Made by a program: the position numbers and the translations under genes
Shown: positions 2,822 through 23,474 of the stretch, piece after piece
Layout: the number at the start of each line of letters is the position of its first letter
How positions within the stretch are numbered: the stretch's first letter is position 1
Notes under the pieces: generated by a model
Told to the model about the DNA's origin: nothing
What the model saw: the letters and a program-made list of their open reading frames with translations, nothing else
Database searches by the model: none
IMG/VR virus record: IMGVR_UViG_3300025712_000039
Coordinates: 1-23,474 of that record
Origin: a virus
DNA: 23,474 nt
Reading direction: 5' to 3' (one strand)

Positions 2822-5794
2822 ATGGCTCAAACATATACTAGACAGAGTTCCATAGCAGATGGGGATACTATAACTGCTGCTCTTTTTAACAATGAATACA
2901 ATCAACTACTTAATGCTTTTAGTTACTCTTCTAGTAGCGCAAGTTCTACAGGACACAGACATGATGGTACTGCAGGACAAGGCGGTAATATTCATACTAT
3001 TGGAGACTTAGATTTCCTAAATAAAATTGTTGCAGACAGCACTAACAATCGTTGGGGAGTTTTTGTAGAAGTTAGTGGATCAGCAGTAGAACAAATAAGA
3101 ATACAAGACGGAGCTATTGTACCTGTTACAGATAATGATATAGATTTAGGTACAAGCTCATTAGAATTTAAAGATGGCTACTTTGATGGTACAGTCTATG
3201 CAGATGCTATAAACTTCAATGGTACTGCAATCTCTGCTACTGCAGCAGAACTCAATATCATGGATGGAGTTACTGCTACTACAGCAGAACTGAACATTAT
3301 GGATGGTGTTACGTCTACCGCTGCAGAGCTTAATATCCTTGATGGTGTTACTGCTAGCGCAACAGATTTAAATCTTATAGATGGTATTACAAACGGTACA
3401 GTTATTGCAAGTAAAGCAATTATTACTGACTCTAATAAAGATATTACTGGCGGCAGAAATATTACAATCTCTGGAGAACTAGATGCAGCTACACTAGACA
3501 TTAGTGGTGATGCAGATATTGATGGTACTCTTGAAGCTGATGCAATTACTATAGGCGGTGTAACTTTAGCAGAAACAATTAGTGATACTGTAGGAGCTAT
3601 GGTTAGCTCAAATACTGAAACAAATATAACTGTTACTTATGAGGATAGCGATAACACATTAGACTTTGTAATTGGTACGCTTAATCAAGATACAACTGGA
3701 ACAGCAGCATTAGCTACATCAGTAACAGTATCTGCAAACAACAGTACAGACGAAACTATCTTCCCAGTATTTGTTGATGGAGCTACAGGAACTCAAGGAT
3801 TAGAAACTGACACAGGACTTACTTATAACCCAAGTTCAGGTAAATTAACTGCTACAGAATTTGTAGGTAATATAGATGCTGTAGACGGAGACTTTGATGG
3901 TACGCTTGAAACAGACGCATTATCTATAGGCGGAACAACCGTTACATCTACAGCAGCAGAACTTAATATCCTTGATGGTGTAACAAGTACCGCAGCAGAA
4001 CTTAATATCCTTGACGGTGTGACAAGTACTGCCGCAGAACTTAATATCCTTGATGGTGTAACAAGTACTGCCGCAGAATTAAATATTCTAGATGGTGTTA
4101 CAGCAAGTGCTACAGACCTCAACCTTATAGACGGTATAACTAATGGTACAGTAATAGCCAGTAAAGCTATTATAACAGATTCAAATAAAGACATTAGTGG
4201 CGGTAGAAACATAACTATTAGTGGTGAACTTGATGCTGCTACATTAGATATTAGTGGTGACGCAGACATAGACGGAACTTTAGAAGCTGATGCAATCACA
4301 GTTAACGGTACAGCTTTAGCAAGCGTTATTGCAGGAACTACAGTAGCAAATGCTACATTGGCCGCTACAACAACAGTTACAGATAGCACAGCTAATACTA
4401 ACTTTCCTGTAATATTTCATGATGAATCTAATGCTTTACTAGATGATACAGGAGCATTAAGATATAATCCAAGCACAGGAACATTATTAGTGCCTAATCT
4501 TAATGTTGCAGGTACTACTACTCAGGTGGATACTGTAACAATGGAAGCCAGTAATGCAATTATTTTTGAGGGAGCAACAAGTGATGCACATGAAACTACG
4601 TTAACTGTAGTTGATCCAACAGGAGATAGAACAATAGGATTACCAAATGTATCTGGTACTCTCCCAGTTCTAGCTGCCGCATCAACTACACAGATTAGTT
4701 CTACACCTGAAGAGCTTAATATACTTGATGGAGCTACTGTAGTTGTTGGAGAAATTAACGCATTAGATTTAGGTTCTACTGCAGTTGGTACAGCTATTGC
4801 TTCTAAAGCAGTTATATTAGATTCTAACAAAGACTATACAGGTGTCAGAAACTTTACATTGTCAGGTGAATTAGATGCAGGAAGTTTAGATGTATCAGGA
4901 GATGCTGATATAGACGGTACATTAGAAACAGATGCCTTGTCTATTAATGGTACTGCAATTACATCTACAGCGGCTGAATTAAATCTTATTGATGGCGGAG
5001 CAACAGTAGGAACAACTGCTGTAGCAGACGGTGATGGTATTCTTCATAATGATGCAGGTACTATGAAAGTTACAAGTGCTGCTACATTTAAAACATATTT
5101 TCAAGCAGGCTTATCAAGTGCAGCAGATGATATATCAGCAGGGGATGCTGCAGTAAACATAACAACAAGTTCAGGAGACATTACAATAGATGCAGCTGCT
5201 AATGATAGTGATATAATATTTAAAGGAACAGATAACAGTTCAGACATAACAATGCTTACACTTGACGGTTCAGACGCAGGTTCAGCTTCTTTTAATGATA
5301 AAGTTACTATAGGTGATGGTAAATTAGTTCTTAACGCAACTGCTGTTACCTCAACTGGTGCAGAGTTAAATATACTAGATGGAGTTACATCAACTACTGC
5401 AGAGCTAAACATTCTTGATGGTGTGACAAGTACTGCAGCAGAGTTAAACATATTAGACGGAGTAACTTCTACAGCTGCAGAGTTAAACATACTTGACGGA
5501 GTTACATCAACTGCGGCAGAATTAAACATACTAGACGGAGTTACCTCTACAGCTGCAGAGTTAAATATTCTAGATGGTGTGACAAGTACTGCAGCAGAGT
5601 TAAATATTATAGATGGCAATACAAGTGCAACTTCTACAACTCTTGCAGATGCAGATAGAGTAGTTGTAAACGATAACGGAACTATGGTTCAAGTAGCTCT
5701 TACAGATTTAGACGCAAGAGATTTTGATATTGTAACATCTGCACCTACTGATGGAACTGGTAAGAAAACTGGTTTTGTTTGGTACGTTGTATAA
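2822..5794 (+). CDS. Tail fibre protein with tandem 13-residue AELNILDG repeats
   Basis: A 990-residue fibre. The N-terminus (residues 1-65, containing GHRHDGTAGQGG) and the IDLGTSSLEFKDGYFDG segment near residue 105 are typical of tail-fibre attachment and shaft starts. The shaft holds tandem 13-residue units of the form VTSTAAELNILDG in clusters at residues 137-188 (4 units), 374-438 (5 units) and 842-932 (7 units), plus single copies near 635 and 715. A roughly 68-residue block following the unit arrays is present twice almost unchanged, with a more diverged third copy. No peptidase S74 intramolecular chaperone domain is visible. The protein ends in GTGKKTGFVWYVV. This repeat is widespread in marine phage fibres, and receptor binding is the expected role. 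The 13-codon units keep frame if copies are gained or lost. GGGAG at 2807-2811 may serve as ribosome binding site. Confidence 0.85.
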   Translation: MAQTYTRQSSIADGDTITAALFNNEYNQLLNAFSYSSSSASSTGHRHDGTAGQGGNIHTIGDLDFLNKIVADSTNNRWGVFVEVSGSAVEQIRIQDGAIVPVTDNDIDLGTSSLEFKDGYFDGTVYADAINFNGTAISATAAELNIMDGVTATTAELNIMDGVTSTAAELNILDGVTASATDLNLIDGITNGTVIASKAIITDSNKDITGGRNITISGELDAATLDISGDADIDGTLEADAITIGGVTLAETISDTVGAMVSSNTETNITVTYEDSDNTLDFVIGTLNQDTTGTAALATSVTVSANNSTDETIFPVFVDGATGTQGLETDTGLTYNPSSGKLTATEFVGNIDAVDGDFDGTLETDALSIGGTTVTSTAAELNILDGVTSTAAELNILDGVTSTAAELNILDGVTSTAAELNILDGVTASATDLNLIDGITNGTVIASKAIITDSNKDISGGRNITISGELDAATLDISGDADIDGTLEADAITVNGTALASVIAGTTVANATLAATTTVTDSTANTNFPVIFHDESNALLDDTGALRYNPSTGTLLVPNLNVAGTTTQVDTVTMEASNAIIFEGATSDAHETTLTVVDPTGDRTIGLPNVSGTLPVLAAASTTQISSTPEELNILDGATVVVGEINALDLGSTAVGTAIASKAVILDSNKDYTGVRNFTLSGELDAGSLDVSGDADIDGTLETDALSINGTAITSTAAELNLIDGGATVGTTAVADGDGILHNDAGTMKVTSAATFKTYFQAGLSSAADDISAGDAAVNITTSSGDITIDAAANDSDIIFKGTDNSSDITMLTLDGSDAGSASFNDKVTIGDGKLVLNATAVTSTGAELNILDGVTSTTAELNILDGVTSTAAELNILDGVTSTAAELNILDGVTSTAAELNILDGVTSTAAELNILDGVTSTAAELNIIDGNTSATSTTLADADRVVVNDNGTMVQVALTDLDARDFDIVTSAPTDGTGKKTGFVWYVV
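3230..3385 (+). repeat. Fibre repeat cluster 1: four 39-bp units
   Basis: Four consecutive in-frame 39-base units encode variants of VTSTAAELNILDG (ISATAAELNIMDG, VTATTAELNIMDG, VTSTAAELNILDG, VTASATDLNLIDG). The last unit is the start of the long duplicated block. Confidence 0.85.
3347..3550 (+). repeat. Long fibre duplication, copy 1 (68 codons)
   Basis: This 68-codon block begins VTASATDLNLIDG and ends TLEADAIT. It recurs at 4097-4300 with, by hand comparison, one amino-acid difference (Thr to Ser), although about 39 codons differ silently. Confidence 0.85.
3941..4135 (+). repeat. Fibre repeat cluster 2: five 39-bp units
   Basis: Four units encode VTSTAAELNILDG, followed by one VTASATDLNLIDG unit. 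The first four are more alike at DNA level than units elsewhere in the gene (several share the codons for AELNIL), suggesting recent expansion. Confidence 0.85.
4097..4300 (+). repeat. Long fibre duplication, copy 2 (68 codons)
   Basis: Second copy of the 68-codon block at 3347-3550. The protein is nearly identical while most third positions differ. A third, more diverged copy (IASKAVILDSNKDYTG onward) lies at about 4797-4950. Confidence 0.85.
5345..5617 (+). repeat. Fibre repeat cluster 3: seven 39-bp units
   Basis: Seven consecutive 39-base units encode VTSTxAELNILDG. The last reads AELNIIDG. Units use different synonymous codons (gttacatca, gtgacaagt, gtaacttct for Val-Thr-Ser), so it is a protein repeat rather than an exact DNA repeat. 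Confidence 0.9.
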
Positions 5795-5809: not shown

Positions 5810-6658
5810 ATGGCTATTAATATATGGGATGGAGATTCTATTGAAACTCCTAATCCAATACTAGTAAAAGTAACAAACGGAAATTTACGTTTTGTAAACT
5901 ATGCTGTTGTGTTAGAGACAGACGGTTCTTTAACTACAGTATTTAATGCTATTAGACAAACTACTAAAAATACAGCAACAACTAAAACTACAGCAACTTC
6001 TGTTACTGCTAATACAACAACAACTTTTTCTACATCAAATAGTACTACTACAACTTTTAACACAACAAGATCTACTGCTACCTCAAAGTCAACAACAACT
6101 ACTTTTAATACAACTAGAGCAACTGCTACAAGTAAATCTACTACAACTACTTTTTCTACAAACTATACTTCATATCATAATACTACTACATCATATTTGA
6201 CAGGCACAACTTTTTTCACAAGTTTTGTTACAACTTTTTTTACAGCAGATGAAAATACTCAAGGTAATGTTTCTGCAAATACCGGTAGAAACACTACAAG
6301 AGCAACCACTGAAAGTAGAACTACTTCTGAAGGCGCAACTGTCAGTAGAAATACAACGAGATCTACAACTACAACTTTTAATACTACTACAACCTTTAGT
6401 ACTTCTAAGTCAACTACTACAACTTTTAATACTACTACAACTTTTAGTACAACAAGAAGCACAACTACAACATTTAACACAACTAGAACTACAGAAACTA
6501 CTGCTACAGGAAATACTACAACTACTTTTAATACTGCAACTACTATTTTTGTTAGAGTAACTGCTACAGGAAATACAGGATCAGTTTTTGATACTGAAGT
6601 AGCTTCAGCAGGAGCGCATAGTGCTAGATATTGGGATGGAAGTTCTTGGACAGGATAA
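5810..6658 (+). CDS. Threonine-rich repeat protein, putative fibre or virion surface protein
   Basis: A 282-residue protein with three parts. Residues 1-50 form an ordinary folded-looking start (MAINIWDGDSIETPNP, then two beta stretches). Residues 51-250 are about half threonine in the core blocks and carry a 16-residue repeat, STTTTFNTTRSTATSK, seen from residue 78 (three units) and from 185 (at least three units, with STTTTFNTTTTFSTSK). A short non-repeat stretch with aromatic residues lies between (SYHNTTTSYLTGTTFFTSF). Residues 251-282 form a small C-terminal cap (ARYWDGSSWTG). There is no signal peptide or membrane anchor. Phe recurs at fixed spacing within polar Thr/Asn/Ser, which would suit a fibrous beta structure. 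The many NTT and Ser/Thr runs could also be glycan acceptors, and two glycosyltransferase-like genes follow. A fibre or adhesin tip is likely given the preceding fibre gene. No family recognised. Confidence 0.7.
   Translation: MAINIWDGDSIETPNPILVKVTNGNLRFVNYAVVLETDGSLTTVFNAIRQTTKNTATTKTTATSVTANTTTTFSTSNSTTTTFNTTRSTATSKSTTTTFNTTRATATSKSTTTTFSTNYTSYHNTTTSYLTGTTFFTSFVTTFFTADENTQGNVSANTGRNTTRATTESRTTSEGATVSRNTTRSTTTTFNTTTTFSTSKSTTTTFNTTTTFSTTRSTTTTFNTTRTTETTATGNTTTTFNTATTIFVRVTATGNTGSVFDTEVASAGAHSARYWDGSSWTG
6041..6553 (+). repeat. Thr-rich 16-residue (48-bp) repeat region
   Basis: Within the Thr-rich gene, 48-base units encode S-TTTT-F-(N/S)-T pattern blocks at residues 78-125 and 185-248, separated by about 60 less regular residues. 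Because the codons are mostly aca/act, the plus strand here is a low-complexity A/C/T-rich track. Confidence 0.75.
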
Positions 6659-15628: not shown

Positions 15629-18600
15629 ATGTCAATGACTTGGCAGCAATTTCAGCAAAACAATCCTAGTATGTTTAAAAATCTAGGTGAAACTCAAGAA
15701 GAAAAAGAAAGAAGACAAACTTTAGAAAATCAAGAAAAAACTTTTTCTGCTATAAAAATTTCAAATAACAGACCTGACTATACTGCTGTATCTGGATATA
15801 ATGATTTTAGCAATACTGTAAATCAAGAAATAAATCAGAAAAAAAATGTTTATGATGATCCTTTTATTCAAAGAATTTTAGATGATAATACATCTTCTAA
15901 TTTAGATAGGGAAAGAAAACAGTCTGCTTCTTTTTATTCTGATACTGAATATAGTATGAATGATCTAGATCAAGATCAAGTATATCAAGAAGTAGGAGAA
16001 AGATATCTAAGAGCTATAGGTAGTGATGAAAACTTATATGAAAATTTAAGAGATGCTAAATATAGTATAGGAGATGCTGTTGCTTTAGCAATGAAATCTG
16101 ATAACTGGAGTGATCAAGTTAAAGCAGATTATAAATATTTAAAAACTGTTTTTGATAATTCTAATACAACAGGTGCAAAACATATTCTTCAAGCTACTAA
16201 AGATATTGCTATAGATCTTGTTTTTGATCTTCCTAATTTATTAGCTGTTCCGTTTATTGTATCTACTGGAGGAGTAGGAGGCATAGCTTTATCTGCTGCT
16301 TCTAGACTAGGAGCAACACAAGCCTTTAGACAAAGTGCTAAGAAGATGGCTCTACAATACAATAAAAATAAACCTTTAAGAACAGCAAGTATTGGTTTAA
16401 CAGAAGGTGCTTATGATGCAGGAGTTATTGGTGTCTCTAATCAAATTAGTGATGTTCAAACTGGAATTAGAGAAAAATTTAGTACTCCAGAGGCTATAGG
16501 AATGACTGCAGTAGGTGCTGTAATTGGAGGCGGTGCTGCTGCAGGCTTAGTAAAATTAGGAGATGTTATAGCTAAAAGGCAATTAAATAAATTTGCAGAA
16601 GAAACAGGATTAAGAACAGAAGATATAGCTGACGCTAAACCAGAACAAATTAAAAAATGGCGAGAAGATTTAAGAAAAACAGATAAAATTATAGGTGCTA
16701 TTACAGGTAAAGCAACAACTCCTTTTAAAGAATTTGCTAAAGGTTCTCCGACAATACAAGAATTTTTAACTAATATTAGATATGATGCTATGCGTAGGCT
16801 AATGGATAAAGGCCCTGAAGAAATAGCTAAAACAACTTTTGGTGCTGCAGTATCTAAAAGACAAGCAGAGTATACTTTACTTATGCAGAAAGCAATGGGT
16901 AATCTTACTGGTTTAAACGGAAAGATTGATCCTGTAGATGAAGCAGATATTTTGTATTTATTAAGTAGAGATATAAATTTAAACAACCATGTAAAACTTG
17001 TAAAGTTTAATAAGAAAGGTCTTAATACCTATGAAGTTATTGAGCCTGTCATAATAGACGGAAGAAGAATGTCAGATGAAGTTATGAAAGCTGCTAAAGG
17101 TTTAGATGAAAGTTTTAATAAAATCTTTGAAGACGGTTTTGGTATAGAAACAGTAGGCGGTACAGTATCTAAATTTGATTTATTTAAAAATATATCTCAA
17201 AGAGTAGCTAATTATTTTCCTAGACATTGGAGTATAGATGCTATTAAAGAACAAAGAGATGTATTAGAAAATTTATTAATAAACTCTAGACACACAGATA
17301 TGCGTTTAGAAAGAATGACTGATGAAGGAATTGAAGAATTAAATTTAGATGACGGTGTTACTAGATATACTATAGACTTTGATGCTGATGGTAAAATGAT
17401 ACCTGATAGTGTTGCTAGATTAGATGATGAAGCTAGAAAATTTGTTAATGTAAATGAACTTACTATAGATCAAAAAGTTTTTGGTGATGTAATTAATCCT
17501 AAAACTAACAAGCCTTATCTAGAAAGATACAATGGTTTTGAAGATATGGCTTTAGAGTCTTTAAAGAAAAAATATAATCTAACTGATCTACAAGTAAATG
17601 TAAGTACTAAGAAAAATTTATTAGCTCTTAGACCAGAGTTAGCAGATGAGTTTAATCTTGCAGCTAGAAAATTTAAAGCTCAAGTTATAGTGCAAGATTT
17701 AATTAATAAAGCTGATCCTAAATACAAAAATTTAAAAGGTAGTATGCCTAAACTTGGCAGTAATACTTTTATGAAAGAAAGAGCTTTTGATGATATTGCA
17801 GATACAGACTTACAAAAATATGGTTTTGTAAATACAGATGTTCAATCTGTAGTTACTGACTATGCTTTAAGTATGGGTAAAACTATAGAAAAAGCTAGAT
17901 ATTTTGGAAGAAGCGAAAGAGAATTTAATAAAAGATTTATTGAACCTATTATAGATGAGCTTGATGAATTTGGACAAAAATATAACAGAGAAGAGTTAGT
18001 AGATAACTTAACTAAACTGTATAAAGTAACTGCAGGAGTAGAGGATACTGTTCCTGCTTATGTAGGTAAGTTTGGTAGAAACGCAGTAGATGCTTTAAAG
18101 GTTTCACAGCAACTAGCTCACTTAGGTTTTGCTACGGTGTCTAGTCTTACTGAACCTTTGATTGCTTTATCTAGAGCAGATTTACCAGACGCTATTAATT
18201 TAAGTAAATCGTTTGCTGTAGCAGGATCAAAATTTGCAAAGAAAGCTTTTGTTACTGCAGGAGATCGCATTGCTAATCTAACAGGTAAAAGAACAAGACT
18301 CTTTAAACAATTAGATGATGAAGATTTATATGATACTTATCAAGCAGGGTTGTCTTTAGAAAATTCTGTAATGGATAGAATTGAAGGTATGTATGGAGAA
18401 GGTTTGCAAAGCGGTACAGCAAAGAAAATTTCTAATTGGTTTTTTAATTTAAACGGACTAACTCCCTGGACACAAGCTGTTCAAATGGGAGCATATAAAT
18501 TTGGACAACAAAAAGTACTTAGAATACTTAACGAATTAAACGATAATACCAATTTCTATGGAGTAACTTTGTCTCCTAAAATGAAACAAAGAAGAGTAGA

Positions 18601-20572
18601 TCAATTAGCTGAAATAGGTATTGACAGTAATCAAGCTTTAATAGCTTATAAAAGTAATGTAGATGCTGATGGTATTTTTAATGAACAAGCTTTTAGAGAT
18701 AGTACTTTTTTTGAAGAGCAAGTTTCTCCTGCTTCTGCTTTATTTGCTAGAGAAATTATTCTTAATCCTACAGCTGCAGAAGGAAGTAAACCTTTATGGA
18801 TGAGTGGCTACTGGGCGCAACTATTTGTACAGTTTGCAGGTTATCCTACAGCATTTAATAATACAGTACTTAAAGGTATGGCAAGAAATATGGTAAGAGA
18901 TCCTGTTGCTAATGTTCCTAAAATTATGGGAGCAACAACTATGATGACAGGGGTAGCTGTTATGACTAATGCTATTAGAAGTGAAGGCAGAAGTTTACAA
19001 GAAGAAGATAGTAAAGTTATGGGAGAAGCTATAAGAAGATGGGGTGGATTTGGGCCTTATGAATATATACATAAATATCTTGAAGGGGCTAAGTATGGCG
19101 GTAGAGAAACAGCTGCAGCAATTAAAGCTCCATTAGGGCCTCTTCCTGCAGACCTTATAGATTCTGTAGTTACAGATAAAAGTATTCCTGAAATTCTTGG
19201 AACTAATATTCCTTTTTATTCTGCTCTTAAAAAGAATGAGAAAATTTTTGGAGTAATTCCTTCTAGAAATGATATTAAAAAATTTACTAGGAATTTAGGA
19301 CAAGGAGTTGTATATGATAAAGATTCTGTAGAGTCTTTTGCAGAAGGTGGAGAAGTTACACAAAACAACAATAATATAACAGATGTTTATAAGTTTTTAA
19401 CTAGAGATCAAAATGAATATGGAACTACAGACACAACTCCTATTGCTTTGCATACAGAAGATACGTTACCTACATTAGATATTAAAGATACATTCTACAT
19501 AGACTTAAAAGGCTTTACAGTTGCAGATAAACTAGAAGCATACCGCAAGTCAGATACTATTGGAGTTCCTGTATACAAAGCTAAAGGCAGAGGAAACGTA
19601 GCAGGTAAAATTAAATTTCATAAGTTATTAGAATTAGATATTGATAATACAGAACTAGAAACTGTACAAGAAAGTATTAACAAAAATAAAGATGATATAA
19701 TATATACAGATGATTTTATTGCTAATGAAATTATTAAAGAAACAAACTATCAACTTACTCTTAGAGATGATGTTCTTAATGATGATCCTGATAGGACTGC
19801 TAATAAAGAAAAATTAATTACTAAAAGTAAAAGTTTTTTAATAAAGAATGAAATACTTAAACTAGGCTATGATGCTATAAAGACTAAAGAGGGCTATACA
19901 TTACTTAGAGAGAACCAGTTTTTAGCTACAGAAATACTAGATAGAAGACAACAAGTATTCTTAGGTGGTTTATTAAAAAGAGCTAGAGGATTTTTAGGCG
20001 CACTTTTAAGAAGAGCTAAAGGTGCAGCAAACAGGGCTGAAACAAAAATGGAAGATATACAATTTCAAACACAAGACGCTGTATTAATAGGAGGAGCTGC
20101 ACAAGCTGTTCCTAGAACTTTAGTAACTGATGAAATAATATTACCTAAACTATTTAAAGATAAGTTAAGAGATAGTGAAAGCTCTGGAAATTATGAAGCT
20201 GTAAATAGTCTAGGATATATGGGTGCGTATCAATTTGGTAAGAGTAGATTAAAAGATTACAAAGATAGATATAATACATCTTTTACTAATGAAGAATTTT
20301 TAGCAGATAAAAAATTACAAGATGAAGTATTTGATTGGCATGTTAGTGATATTAGAAAAGGAATTAAAAGAAATAAACTGGATCAATATATTGGTCAAAA
20401 AATTAATGGAGTAGCTATTACAGAACCAGGAATGGTTGGTGTTGCTCATTTAGGAGGCTTTACAGGTATGAAACAGTTTATTAGAAATTTAGGAGAAGGA
20501 GATAAGCAAGATGCTTATGGTACTAAACTTTCTGATTATCTAGATAAATTTAAAAATACTAGATTTGAGTAA
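15629..20572 (+). CDS. Giant internal virion protein with C-terminal peptidoglycan lytic domain
   Basis: A 1647-residue protein, counterpart in size and position of the largest ejected core protein (gp16) of T7-like phages. The N-terminus is hydrophilic (MSMTWQQFQQNNPSMFKNLG). Hydrophobic segments occur near residues 195-230 (LPNLLAVPFIVSTGGVGGIA), 290-312 (GMTAVGAVIGGGAAAGLVKL) and 1099-1117, which may insert in the inner membrane. The body (320-1240) is helical and charged. A FAEGGEV motif near 1236 marks the start of an accessory region that includes LKLGYDAIKTKEGYTLLREN at about 1411-1430. The last about 135 residues form a lysozyme/lytic-transglycosylase-like domain: D1515-S-E1517-S-S-G-N-Y, with E1517 the likely catalytic acid, then LGYMGAYQFGKSRL around 1529-1542 and HLGGFTGM. 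T7 places its transglycosylase at the N-terminus of gp16; here it is at the C-terminus. Expected role: local murein cleavage and channel formation during genome entry. Confidence 0.75.
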   Translation: MSMTWQQFQQNNPSMFKNLGETQEEKERRQTLENQEKTFSAIKISNNRPDYTAVSGYNDFSNTVNQEINQKKNVYDDPFIQRILDDNTSSNLDRERKQSASFYSDTEYSMNDLDQDQVYQEVGERYLRAIGSDENLYENLRDAKYSIGDAVALAMKSDNWSDQVKADYKYLKTVFDNSNTTGAKHILQATKDIAIDLVFDLPNLLAVPFIVSTGGVGGIALSAASRLGATQAFRQSAKKMALQYNKNKPLRTASIGLTEGAYDAGVIGVSNQISDVQTGIREKFSTPEAIGMTAVGAVIGGGAAAGLVKLGDVIAKRQLNKFAEETGLRTEDIADAKPEQIKKWREDLRKTDKIIGAITGKATTPFKEFAKGSPTIQEFLTNIRYDAMRRLMDKGPEEIAKTTFGAAVSKRQAEYTLLMQKAMGNLTGLNGKIDPVDEADILYLLSRDINLNNHVKLVKFNKKGLNTYEVIEPVIIDGRRMSDEVMKAAKGLDESFNKIFEDGFGIETVGGTVSKFDLFKNISQRVANYFPRHWSIDAIKEQRDVLENLLINSRHTDMRLERMTDEGIEELNLDDGVTRYTIDFDADGKMIPDSVARLDDEARKFVNVNELTIDQKVFGDVINPKTNKPYLERYNGFEDMALESLKKKYNLTDLQVNVSTKKNLLALRPELADEFNLAARKFKAQVIVQDLINKADPKYKNLKGSMPKLGSNTFMKERAFDDIADTDLQKYGFVNTDVQSVVTDYALSMGKTIEKARYFGRSEREFNKRFIEPIIDELDEFGQKYNREELVDNLTKLYKVTAGVEDTVPAYVGKFGRNAVDALKVSQQLAHLGFATVSSLTEPLIALSRADLPDAINLSKSFAVAGSKFAKKAFVTAGDRIANLTGKRTRLFKQLDDEDLYDTYQAGLSLENSVMDRIEGMYGEGLQSGTAKKISNWFFNLNGLTPWTQAVQMGAYKFGQQKVLRILNELNDNTNFYGVTLSPKMKQRRVDQLAEIGIDSNQALIAYKSNVDADGIFNEQAFRDSTFFEEQVSPASALFAREIILNPTAAEGSKPLWMSGYWAQLFVQFAGYPTAFNNTVLKGMARNMVRDPVANVPKIMGATTMMTGVAVMTNAIRSEGRSLQEEDSKVMGEAIRRWGGFGPYEYIHKYLEGAKYGGRETAAAIKAPLGPLPADLIDSVVTDKSIPEILGTNIPFYSALKKNEKIFGVIPSRNDIKKFTRNLGQGVVYDKDSVESFAEGGEVTQNNNNITDVYKFLTRDQNEYGTTDTTPIALHTEDTLPTLDIKDTFYIDLKGFTVADKLEAYRKSDTIGVPVYKAKGRGNVAGKIKFHKLLELDIDNTELETVQESINKNKDDIIYTDDFIANEIIKETNYQLTLRDDVLNDDPDRTANKEKLITKSKSFLIKNEILKLGYDAIKTKEGYTLLRENQFLATEILDRRQQVFLGGLLKRARGFLGALLRRAKGAANRAETKMEDIQFQTQDAVLIGGAAQAVPRTLVTDEIILPKLFKDKLRDSESSGNYEAVNSLGYMGAYQFGKSRLKDYKDRYNTSFTNEEFLADKKLQDEVFDWHVSDIRKGIKRNKLDQYIGQKINGVAITEPGMVGVAHLGGFTGMKQFIRNLGEGDKQDAYGTKLSDYLDKFKNTRFE

Positions 20573-20835: not shown

Positions 20836-21321
20836 ATGAAATTTGGAATGATAAAAAACTTAATAGGCGCAGTAGCTCCAACAATCGGTACAGCCCTGGG
20901 TGGGCCTATGGGCAATATGGCAGCTAATATGATTGCTGAAACTTTAGGATGTGAGCCTACACCTAAGAAAATAGAGCAAGCAGTACAAGCAGCCACACCA
21001 GAACAACTTGCAGAGATTAAAAAGATTGATGCAGACTTTGAAGTAAAAATGAAAGAGTTAGATGTAGATCTATATGATCTTCAAACTAAAGACATACAAG
21101 ATGCAAGAGGGAAATTTTCTAAAGATTGGACATCTAGAATCATGGGATTAGTTGTTGTTGGTGGCTTTATGGGTTACATTTTTCTAATTACTCTGCAGCC
21201 TCCAGAGCAGAACAGCGAAGCGTTGATCAACTTAGTGCTAGGTTATCTTGGTGGTCTTGCAAGTGCTATTATATCTTTTTATTTTGGAGCGTCTAATACT
21301 GGAAGTAAAGACGATAAGTAA
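20836..21321 (+). CDS. Holin, three-transmembrane type (GTA holin-like)
   Basis: A 161-residue protein matching the layout of the 'holin of 3TMs' family (first described in gene transfer agents). An N-terminal Gly/Ala-rich hydrophobic segment (IGAVAPTIGTALGGPMGN, about 8-27) is followed by a charged helix (EQLAEIKKIDADFEVKMKEL) ending in the DIQDAR motif, then two strong membrane spans at about 104-122 (VVVGGFMGYIFLITL) and 131-151 (INLVLGYLGGLASAIISFYF). It would form inner-membrane lesions that time lysis. AGAGG at 20823-20827 precedes the ATG by eight bases. The end overlaps the next ATG (TAATG). No soluble endolysin gene lies beside it in this window. The nearest lytic activity is the C-terminal domain of the giant virion protein, so the endolysin may be elsewhere. 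Confidence 0.8.
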   Translation: MKFGMIKNLIGAVAPTIGTALGGPMGNMAANMIAETLGCEPTPKKIEQAVQAATPEQLAEIKKIDADFEVKMKELDVDLYDLQTKDIQDARGKFSKDWTSRIMGLVVVGGFMGYIFLITLQPPEQNSEALINLVLGYLGGLASAIISFYFGASNTGSKDDK

Positions 21322-21671
21322 TGGAAGACATTATAAATCTGATTAATCAGGTAGGCTTTCCAGTTGCATCTGCATTAGGTTTAGGTTTCTTTATATGGAA
21401 ACTTATTAACCGCATTATTGATGGTATGGAAGCTAAGATAGATGTAGTTGATGAAAAAGTAGATGCTAGTCTTAACGCAATGGAAGAAAGACTAAGCACT
21501 AAACTTGATGCTCAATACGGAATAATTGTAGCTTTAATTGATAGGGTACGCGCACTTGATAATCAAACTATACGTCAAGATGTTTTACTAAAAACATTAC
21601 TTGGTATTCCTAATTTAATTGAAATAGATAAGGTGGCAAAAGCAGACCGTGAAGATCAAAGAAAAGATTAA
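21321..21671 (+). CDS. Membrane-anchored coiled-coil protein, possible second holin or lysis accessory
   Basis: A 116-residue protein with an N-terminal hydrophobic segment at about residues 8-29 (LINQVGFPVASALGLGFFIW), then a long coiled coil (GMEAKIDVVDEKVDASLNAM onward) and a charged tail. The 'I-x-Q-x-G-F-P-V-A-x-A' start recalls YvrJ/BhlA-like small phage proteins, some of which are thought to act as holin-like proteins. The start overlaps the holin stop by one base, so they are probably translated together. The architecture resembles the 79-residue protein at 8537-8776. The end overlaps the csgF-like start by 23 bases, linking the lysis genes to the curli-type genes in one transcript. 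Confidence 0.65.
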   Translation: MEDIINLINQVGFPVASALGLGFFIWKLINRIIDGMEAKIDVVDEKVDASLNAMEERLSTKLDAQYGIIVALIDRVRALDNQTIRQDVLLKTLLGIPNLIEIDKVAKADREDQRKD

Positions 21672-22104
21672 AATTAACCTAATAGCTTTTTTTATTTGGC
21701 AAGGAGATATCTTTGCAGACGAATTGTTATTTAAATTTAAAAGTCCTAGCTTTTCTGGAGTAAATACTAGCAGTCACTATCTTACAATAGAGAACCAAGA
21801 AGCTACAAGAAAGCAAGCTATTAAAGAAGAGATAGAAGCATATCAAGATCAGTTAGCTAGAGAAGCAGATAACACTACACTTGCAAGGTTTATAAGAAAT
21901 TTAGAAAGCAGAATCTACGCACAATTATCTAGGCAAATGGTAGAACAATTATTTGGTGAGACACCACAAACATCAGGATCACTTGAGCTAGAAGGAAATA
22001 CTATTGAATACAAAGTTGAAAATGAACTTATCACGCTTACTATTACAGACGAAAATGGGGGGCAGACCAGTATTACTGTGCCTATTGGTACTTTTACTTT
22101 CTAG
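21649..22104 (+). CDS. csgF: CsgF-like curli assembly component
   Basis: A 151-residue secreted protein. GTG at 21649 starts a signal peptide, MKIKEKIKINLIAFFIWQGD then IFA, with probable cleavage after A23. The mature start DELLFKFKSPSFSGVN aligns with the N-terminus of E. coli CsgF (T-F-Q-F-R-N-P-N-F-G-G-N), the part known to insert into the CsgG channel and form its second constriction. The C-terminus NTIEYKVENELITLTITDEN followed by GGQTSITV aligns with the CsgF C-terminal beta strands (D-Y-I-V-D-I ... T-G-Q-T-S-T-I-x-V). Between them is a charged helical region (about residues 50-105), more Lys/Glu/Arg-rich than in E. coli; total length 151 against 138. CsgF normally anchors the nucleator at the cell surface. 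The weak AAGGTGG at 21630-21636 may help initiation. It overlaps the upstream gene by 23 bases and csgG by 50. Confidence 0.85.
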   Translation: MKIKEKIKINLIAFFIWQGDIFADELLFKFKSPSFSGVNTSSHYLTIENQEATRKQAIKEEIEAYQDQLAREADNTTLARFIRNLESRIYAQLSRQMVEQLFGETPQTSGSLELEGNTIEYKVENELITLTITDENGGQTSITVPIGTFTF

Positions 22105-22864
22105 TTGTGCATCTAAAGATTTATTAAACGGAAGCGGTATACCTAATGTTGTAATAAAAAGTTCTTCTGTATTAGAACTACAGTCTGAAGAATTAAAACA
22201 ACTTCCTGCAGCAATACGAAAACCAGTAATAGCTATATACCCTAATAGCTTTAGAGATCACACAGGACAGCGCAGAAGTAATGGGCAGTTTGCCTTGTTC
22301 AGTACTGCAATTACGCAGGCCCCTGAAGCATTTCTTATCAGAGCTTTAAAACAAGCTGCAAAGGGAAAGTTTTTTCAAGTTGCAGAGCGCGTAGGATTAG
22401 ATTCACTTACTAAAGAAAGACAACTTATACGTTCAACAAGAGAAACATTTGAAGAGGACAGCAGCGTCAAACCTCTTTTACTAGCAGGACTCTTGATTCA
22501 GGGAGGAGTGTTATCGTATGATTCTAATATAAAATCTGGAGGCGCAGGAGCAAGACTGTTAGGTCTAGGAAGTTCTAAACAGTATAGAGAAGATTTAATT
22601 ACCATATCTTTGAGATTAGTTTCTGTCTCAACAGGAGAAATATTAATAGAAGTATTAGTATCTAAAACAGTTACATCAGCAGGTCTTTCGCAGGATGTGT
22701 TTAGATTTTTAGATGAAGGCAGAAGACTTATTGAAGTAGAAGGAGGAGTTGCAGAGAACGAAAGTACCTCTATAGCTCTACAACAGGCAATAGAAGAAGG
22801 TGTTTTACAAATAATTAAAATAGGAATAACCAGGGGGTATTGGGAATATGAAGAAATTAATTAG
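22055..22864 (+). CDS. csgG: CsgG-like outer-membrane curli secretion pore (lipoprotein)
   Basis: From ATG 22055 the product is 269 residues. The lipoprotein signal peptide MGGRPVLLCLLVLLLSSC has lipobox L-S-S-C18, and no Asp follows the Cys, consistent with outer-membrane sorting. In-frame starts at 22004 (TTG) and 22022 (ATG) would give longer, less typical signal peptides. The body matches CsgG closely: FRDHTGQ, FSTAITQAPEAFLIRALK, FFQVAERVGLDSL, KSGGAGARLLGLGSSKQY (about 160-177), VSVSTGEIL, FRFLDEG, and a C-terminal G-Y-W. The eyelet loop keeps the Phe before S-T-A (E. coli F56 equivalent), while the N55 position appears to be Leu. CsgG forms a nonameric channel that exports unfolded curlin. 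Length is close to E. coli (277). The first 16 codons overlap the end of csgF, and the last 17 bases overlap the curlin-like gene. Confidence 0.92.
   Translation: MGGRPVLLCLLVLLLSSCASKDLLNGSGIPNVVIKSSSVLELQSEELKQLPAAIRKPVIAIYPNSFRDHTGQRRSNGQFALFSTAITQAPEAFLIRALKQAAKGKFFQVAERVGLDSLTKERQLIRSTRETFEEDSSVKPLLLAGLLIQGGVLSYDSNIKSGGAGARLLGLGSSKQYREDLITISLRLVSVSTGEILIEVLVSKTVTSAGLSQDVFRFLDEGRRLIEVEGGVAENESTSIALQQAIEEGVLQIIKIGITRGYWEYEEIN
22832..22837 (+). promoter_or_regulatory. Shine-Dalgarno sequence (AGGGGG)
   Basis: AGGGGG lies ten bases before the ATG at 22848, inside the end of csgG. It supports initiation of the curlin-like gene at that ATG. Confidence 0.45.
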
Positions 22865-23474
22865 CTTGTTAATGCTTGTTAGCATTTCCGCAACAGCTTC
22901 AGACAACGAAATCTTTGTAGATCAAGTAGGAGCTACAGCTAATATAGATCTTGAACAGTTAGGTAGTGGTAACATTATAGGTGGTCTTACTGCAGTAGCA
23001 GGTTCAATGACAGCCTTGGATCTTGACGGAACATCCATGACGTTAGACATAAATCAGATTGGTGATGCTAACAAATTTCTAGGAGATATGTATGCAGATT
23101 CATACACAGGTTACTTTAATTTTGATGGCGATACTAACACGTTCACATCTAAAATGGATTCAACCAATTCGTTTGGTGCAGATGGTTCAAACGTTAATGT
23201 CCAAGTGACAGGTAGTACCAACACCTTTACACTTGATCTAGCTACTAGTGCTTTAGCAAGTAGCGCAGATATAGATTGGACTGTGCAAGGTTCTAGTAAT
23301 ACTATTAATGCTGACATTGATGTGGATTCAGCTACTAATTATATGAATATAGATGGCGATAGTAATACAGTAAATTATGATGGAGATGGTTATGCCCAGG
23401 GATATTTTCACCTTACACACACAGGAAGTTCAAGAGCCTTTGATGTGGATCAACAAAGCACACAAGATTCAGAT
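22848..23474 (+). CDS. Secreted curlin-like repeat protein (3' truncated by window end)
   Basis: ATG at 22848 opens a frame of 209 codons that continues past the right edge without a stop. Residues 1-17 form a signal peptide (MKKLISLLMLVSISATA), giving a mature start SDNEIFVDQ. The mature part is rich in Asp, Asn, Gly, Ser and Thr, low in Lys and Cys-free. It carries a repeated hydrophobic-x-(Q/D/T)-x-G-x-x-N element: EQLGSGN (G39), NQIGDAN (G72), NFDGDTN (G94), QVTGSTN (G122), TVQGSSN (G148), NIDGDSN (G170), THTGSSR (G193). Most spacings are 22-28 residues, near the roughly 22-residue CsgA repeat (Q-x-G-x-x-N-x-A-x-x-x-Q). It is much more acidic than CsgA. Being directly downstream of csgF and csgG, it is the obvious substrate of the pore. 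It could form an amyloid-like fibre or a beta-solenoid. Not a clear CsgA or CsgB orthologue. Confidence 0.75.
   Translation, partial: MKKLISLLMLVSISATASDNEIFVDQVGATANIDLEQLGSGNIIGGLTAVAGSMTALDLDGTSMTLDINQIGDANKFLGDMYADSYTGYFNFDGDTNTFTSKMDSTNSFGADGSNVNVQVTGSTNTFTLDLATSALASSADIDWTVQGSSNTINADIDVDSATNYMNIDGDSNTVNYDGDGYAQGYFHLTHTGSSRAFDVDQQSTQDSD

Follow-up and report, generated by a model that had tools for sequence, protein, structure and literature searches.

A putative curli-type (type VIII) secretion cassette at the end of the late operon of a probable SAR11 podophage

Why should a phage carry genes for the secretion of curli-like fibres? The question is raised by a 23,474-nt stretch of viral DNA (IMG/VR record IMGVR_UViG_3300025712_000039, positions 1 to 23,474), referred to as a whole as the window. 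A first, sequence-only reading of its right end had proposed that three overlapping genes encode CsgF, CsgG and a candidate curlin substrate, and that the phage exports its own amyloid-like subunit late in infection. Here we examine the genes, their neighbours and their relatives, and weigh the roles that such a cassette could play.

Gene content of the cassette

The five genes listed next are on the plus strand. A probable holin gene (hol161, 20836..21321), which lies outside the cassette proper, is followed by hol116 (21321..21671, 116 aa), csgF (21649..22104, 151 aa, with a GTG start), csgG (22055..22864, 269 aa) and the gene of an exported repeat protein (22848..23474). The overlaps between csgF, csgG and the repeat-protein gene are as originally described. 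The last gene is cut by the end of the window, where it encodes 209 aa; in IMG/VR contigs that are identical to the window in CsgG (L002-L007) it is complete with 235 aa (L002:10794-11501). The same contigs revealed what lies to the right of the window: a fourth gene, encoding a FecR domain and a curlin-like tail, overlaps the repeat-protein gene and completes the cassette, and is followed by a convergent replication operon. A promoter scan gave no signal above background.

The assignment of the two secretion proteins was confirmed by profile searches. CsgF, the exported coupling or cap protein, matched PF10614 unambiguously (E 2.3e-18; 67.1 bits against a cut-off of 25.8), and its comparison with PDB sequences gave chance-level matches only. 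The predicted mature protein starts with FKFKSPSFSG, resembling what we take to be the corresponding E. coli segment, FQFRNPNFGG. CsgG, the lipoprotein that forms the secretion channel in the outer membrane, matched PF03783 (E 1.5e-45; 155.6 bits against a cut-off of 20.8). The profile of the phage CsgG family aligned with the entire length of the solved E. coli CsgG (E 6e-61) and the lipobox cysteine C18 was invariant in 14 aligned relatives, in agreement with the proposed lipoprotein. Of the E. coli constriction residues, the phage family retains F56, with substitutions at Y51 and N55. In E. coli, CsgE acts as a gate and CsgC as a chaperone, although neither is essential everywhere. The phage cassette differs from that of E. 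coli in lacking both: neither CsgE (PF10627) nor CsgC (PF10610) was matched in 8 long related phage records (0/8), while the E. coli control was positive for both, which bears out the absence noted earlier.

The repeat protein required a more cautious name. It has a signal-peptide-like start and about nine regular G-x-x-N repeats, the first two of which show the curlin-type pattern DNEIYVDQVGATANIDLEQLGSGN (Q-x-G...N) that is kept in nearly all relatives. The Pfam curlin family PF07012 did not reach its cut-off, either with the whole protein (E 0.94) or with the first, N-terminal repeat alone (16.6 bits; cut-off 20.7), and matched 4 of 24 relatives, all weakly. Direct profile comparison with cellular curlin was not significant. 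The family did match the second curlin protein of the myophage HTVC008M (probability 96.6%), which passes the Pfam curlin cut-off in three stretches and also possesses a PA14 domain. Because the window protein misses the cut-off, yet is related to one that passes it, we call it curlin-like rather than curlin. An AlphaFold2 model (pLDDT 83.9, pTM 0.81) was all-beta with a strand-turn-strand architecture; its best viral structure matches, with a probability of 1.00, were phage proteins that bear the annotation 'Curlin associated', and a comparison with solved structures returned nothing significant. The second curlin gene of HTVC008M (L083:8450-9775, AGE60352) itself suggests a carbohydrate-binding head (PA14) on a fibre core of curlin repeats.

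Might the cassette then secrete a beta-repeat protein that forms no fibres, but coats or hides receptors or works as a soluble adhesin? The divergence of the repeats from curlin (they are Asp-rich, with G-x-x-N but no regular Gln ladder), the sub-threshold PF07012 score, the confidently predicted monomer fold and the PA14 domain in HTVC008M would all suit such a protein. The Q-x-G...N pattern of the first two repeats in nearly all relatives speaks against it, as does the constant retention of CsgF, which is known to nucleate fibres on the surface of the cell. We therefore regard a non-amyloid product as quite unlikely.

The FecR protein (PF04773, E 7e-11) would fit a fibre-forming system. In all aligned podophage relatives a brief hydrophobic stretch at the start leads straight into the FecR domain (starts and signal peptides were read by eye), which would leave no room for a cytoplasmic anti-sigma domain. 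At the C-terminus the podophage proteins end in GSYNIRIEQEGKVNQITTNGGSSSxITIKQGS, a motif of the form I-x-I-x-Q-x-G-K-x-N...I-x-I-x-Q-G in which the family shows no variation at the Q, G, N and I-x-I-x-Q positions; myophage FecR proteins carry a shorter form. Since a Pfam scan of the tail alone gave no match, the label 'curlin-like repeat' refers to this motif and its invariance. The structure model was of low confidence (pLDDT 49.8) and was excluded from the evidence. For HTVC023P-type podophages the FecR protein has been proposed to be an iron regulator (PMC9599517). From the signal-peptide-like start and the curlin-like repeat at the end we infer instead an exported fibre partner, perhaps a nucleator or anchor; the poor model and the unrecognised tail keep this at the level of inference.

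Taken together, the locus is best explained as a phage-encoded type VIII cassette of hol116, csgF, csgG, the curlin-like gene and the FecR-curlin gene at the end of a late/lysis operon.

Carriers and conservation

The tail and replication genes shared by the window phage and HTVC104P are about 41-52% identical, and the ribonucleotide reductase is 64% identical to that of HMO-2011. The polymerase showed only a remote match to the HTVC023P-type phage 023Pt_psg01. Taken with the classification in PMC8528129, this gene sharing places the phage, as far as gene content can tell, with the HTVC103P-type podophages of SAR11 or close relatives of that type. Elsewhere in the window three further proteins deserve mention. 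A 990-aa tail-region protein (2822-5794) contains a 39-bp repeat array (AAELNILDGVTST) and has a DNA-level match to a baseplate protein of HTVC008M. It is followed by a 282-aa protein of no known family (5810-6658) that consists mostly of Thr-rich repeats (TTTTFNTTRSTATSK; 18- and 48-bp repeats at the DNA level). A 1647-aa virion protein (15629-20572) has an endolysin-like C-terminal part (PHROG 26675, residues 1519-1639) and may represent the fusion of an internal protein with a cell-wall enzyme.

A cellular source close to SAR11 was considered and rejected. Of 297 Pelagibacterales genomes only 1 contained CsgF, and this single case is phage contig L228, in line with the published statement that SAR11 lacks a type VIII system. 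Among Rhodobacteraceae, 14 of 298 genomes possessed CsgF, in operons that are built differently. Four matches from genome collections (L225-L228) look like phage contigs, two of them (L225 and L228) carrying lysozyme together with tail or terminase genes. These probable phage contigs had been binned with Maricaulis, Flavobacteriaceae, Rhodobacteraceae and Pelagibacter MAGs, where they would falsely suggest host curli genes. A CsgG relative (39%) is also encoded by OR851715.1, an unannotated record of 1499 bases assigned to Salmonella phage S.Kent 1-2-1, possibly host DNA.

For the survey of co-occurrence, 82 loci were fetched by CsgG and each gene was counted where the locus had enough sequence to contain it. 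CsgF was present in 81/81 such loci, hol116 in 79/79, the curlin-like gene in 79/79 and the FecR gene in 73/73, so that the grouping suspected from the window alone extends to its relatives and the pore was never seen without a substrate gene. Purifying selection acts on each of the five genes (dN/dS about 0.02-0.17). In the CsgG tree the podophage sequences formed one supported clade (100/99), separate from the myophages. Some pairs of loci differed gene by gene: between L002 and L010 CsgF hardly differs (pN 0.02) but the curlin-like gene does (pN 0.18), and L002 and L029 show the reverse. Judging from these pairs, parts of the cassette seem to have been swapped between phages.

Since the gate protein CsgE is missing, it has been suggested that in pelagiphages the pore takes up nutrients or cofactors that phage replication needs. 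The absence of CsgE is borne out in the 8 long related records, but the proposal accounts neither for the placement in a late/lysis operon nor for CsgF, the curlin-like gene and the FecR protein with its curlin tail, and we consider it very improbable.

The cassette among lysis genes

Both small membrane proteins upstream of csgF bear on the timing of the system. The 161-aa membrane protein belongs to a PHROG family of function unknown (PHROG 1544, E 9e-25); since its gene adjoins a T4-type lysozyme in relatives, it is probably a holin. The 116-aa protein had been labelled a holin; its PHROG holin match is weak and covers 18 residues only (E 0.005). It combines one likely membrane span with a coiled coil, and Pfam recognised neither a kinase nor a holin domain in it. 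Searches from a csg-bearing and a csg-free phage found csgF/csgG directly downstream at 74/78 and 47/54 readable sites of its family, or 121/132 in all. With this distribution a plain holin is unsupported; most of the 11 sites without csg genes lie beside hol161 and a T4-type lysozyme, so that the protein may have a role in lysis. Counterparts upstream of csgF in HTVC008M and Melnitz are 28% and 33% identical; in these and other loci two smaller proteins of the same style (90-98 aa) replace the single one.

In the HTVC023P-type cassette, 'a histidine kinase, sometimes two' has been placed in front of csgF (PMC9599517). By position and number, these are probably the same one or two small proteins. 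Proteins of 90-116 aa in which Pfam finds no kinase domain cannot be histidine kinases.

Holin or lysozyme genes lay within 8 kb of the cassette in 31 of the 37 loci with room, and in L225 and L228 the cassette sits between small membrane genes and a phage lysozyme (PF00959, E 1e-49 in L228). Its position among lysis genes, at the end of the structural/lysis operon, points to late expression. Could CsgG-CsgF itself serve lysis or release, as a gated pore that makes the outer membrane permeable at the end of infection, with the repeat protein secondary? A pinholin/secretin arrangement of this kind has been published for Melnitz (PMC9004378). The company of holin and lysozyme genes in most loci would fit, and so would the small membrane gene that adjoins them in csg-free phages. 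A bare pore, however, needs neither the substrate nor the FecR gene, which are always present and under purifying selection, and most related phages have a holin and a lysozyme of their own. On balance a lysis factor appears unlikely.

We favour the secretion of a curlin-like surface protein through CsgG-CsgF late in infection, with a probability of roughly 0.58. Late in infection, the host Sec system would export the cassette proteins, and CsgG together with CsgF would form a channel in the outer membrane. The curlin-like protein would pass this channel and assemble into beta-rich fibres on the outside of the doomed cell. The C-terminal repeat of the exported FecR-domain protein could pair with the subunit, and this protein would stand in for CsgB as nucleator or anchor. 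The phage would probably gain a sticky or shielding coat before lysis, which might either capture neighbouring cells or exclude other phages. The original proposal, that the phage exports its own subunit late, is thereby strengthened in part: profiles, co-occurrence, purifying selection and the substrate model support a type VIII cassette with its own substrate, and the gene position is a late one. A bolder, doubtful extension would couple the system to lysis: hol116 or its two-gene form, as an inner-membrane protein of the lysis module, would time or power export through CsgG-CsgF, the FecR-curlin protein, in which a FecR domain carries just one curlin-like repeat, would be a new kind of exported nucleator, and the fibres would be laid down just before the burst.

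Relation to known curli systems

The cassette is of a kind already published in 2020 and 2022, for SAR11 myophages (csgFG; PMC7029224) and for HTVC023P-type podophages, in which CsgF, CsgG, CsgA/B and FecR were described together with the ideas of sibling capture and defence against superinfection (PMC9599517). With uptake and lysis timing also proposed for pelagiphages (PMC7029224, PMC9004378, PMC9599517), the remark of the sequence-only reading that such genes have no assigned role does not stand. Melnitz-infected OM43 cultures showed no clumping (Buchholz et al., PMC9004378), a point against the reading favoured here, as is the missing CsgE. The text of that paper calls csgA/B missing, whereas the GenBank record of Melnitz annotates two curlin-repeat genes.

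The HTVC023P-type module has the same order of CsgF, CsgG, curlin-like and FecR genes, and HTVC023P-like loci (L067-L081) carry a homologous cassette with a CsgG that is about 58-60% identical. The window phage belongs to another, HTVC103P-type lineage, whose loci lack the adenylate cyclase, and the small proteins before csgF have no kinase domain here. The myophages HTVC008M and Melnitz share the gene order and the same kind of small membrane proteins upstream; they differ by having an adenylate cyclase and a second curlin gene, which in HTVC008M encodes PA14 together with curlin repeats, and their CsgG is 44-47% identical over the matched part. Cellular curli operons, as in E. coli and Rhodobacteraceae, have the CsgG and CsgF families in common with the phages, and in Rhodobacteraceae small exported curlins adjoin csgFG. 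Those inspected encode large curlins of the Q-x-G-x-x-N type, and inspection by eye recognised in them neither a FecR gene nor one for a small membrane protein.

The open-access papers searched yielded nothing linking HMO-2011-type phages to curli, or curlin to FecR in phages. New here are the carriage of the cassette by HTVC103P-type phages, the strict presence of the substrate gene, the curlin-like tail of the FecR protein, a revised view of the 'kinase' and the setting among lysis genes. The published roles of iron regulator and histidine kinase do not fit the sequences of the FecR protein and the small protein before csgF. That a further phage group has the cassette, always accompanied by the substrate, speaks against the pore-only interpretations published earlier. 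SAR11 bacteria are among the most abundant marine organisms. As their sampled genomes lack the system, infection would add a new surface fibre to the cell.
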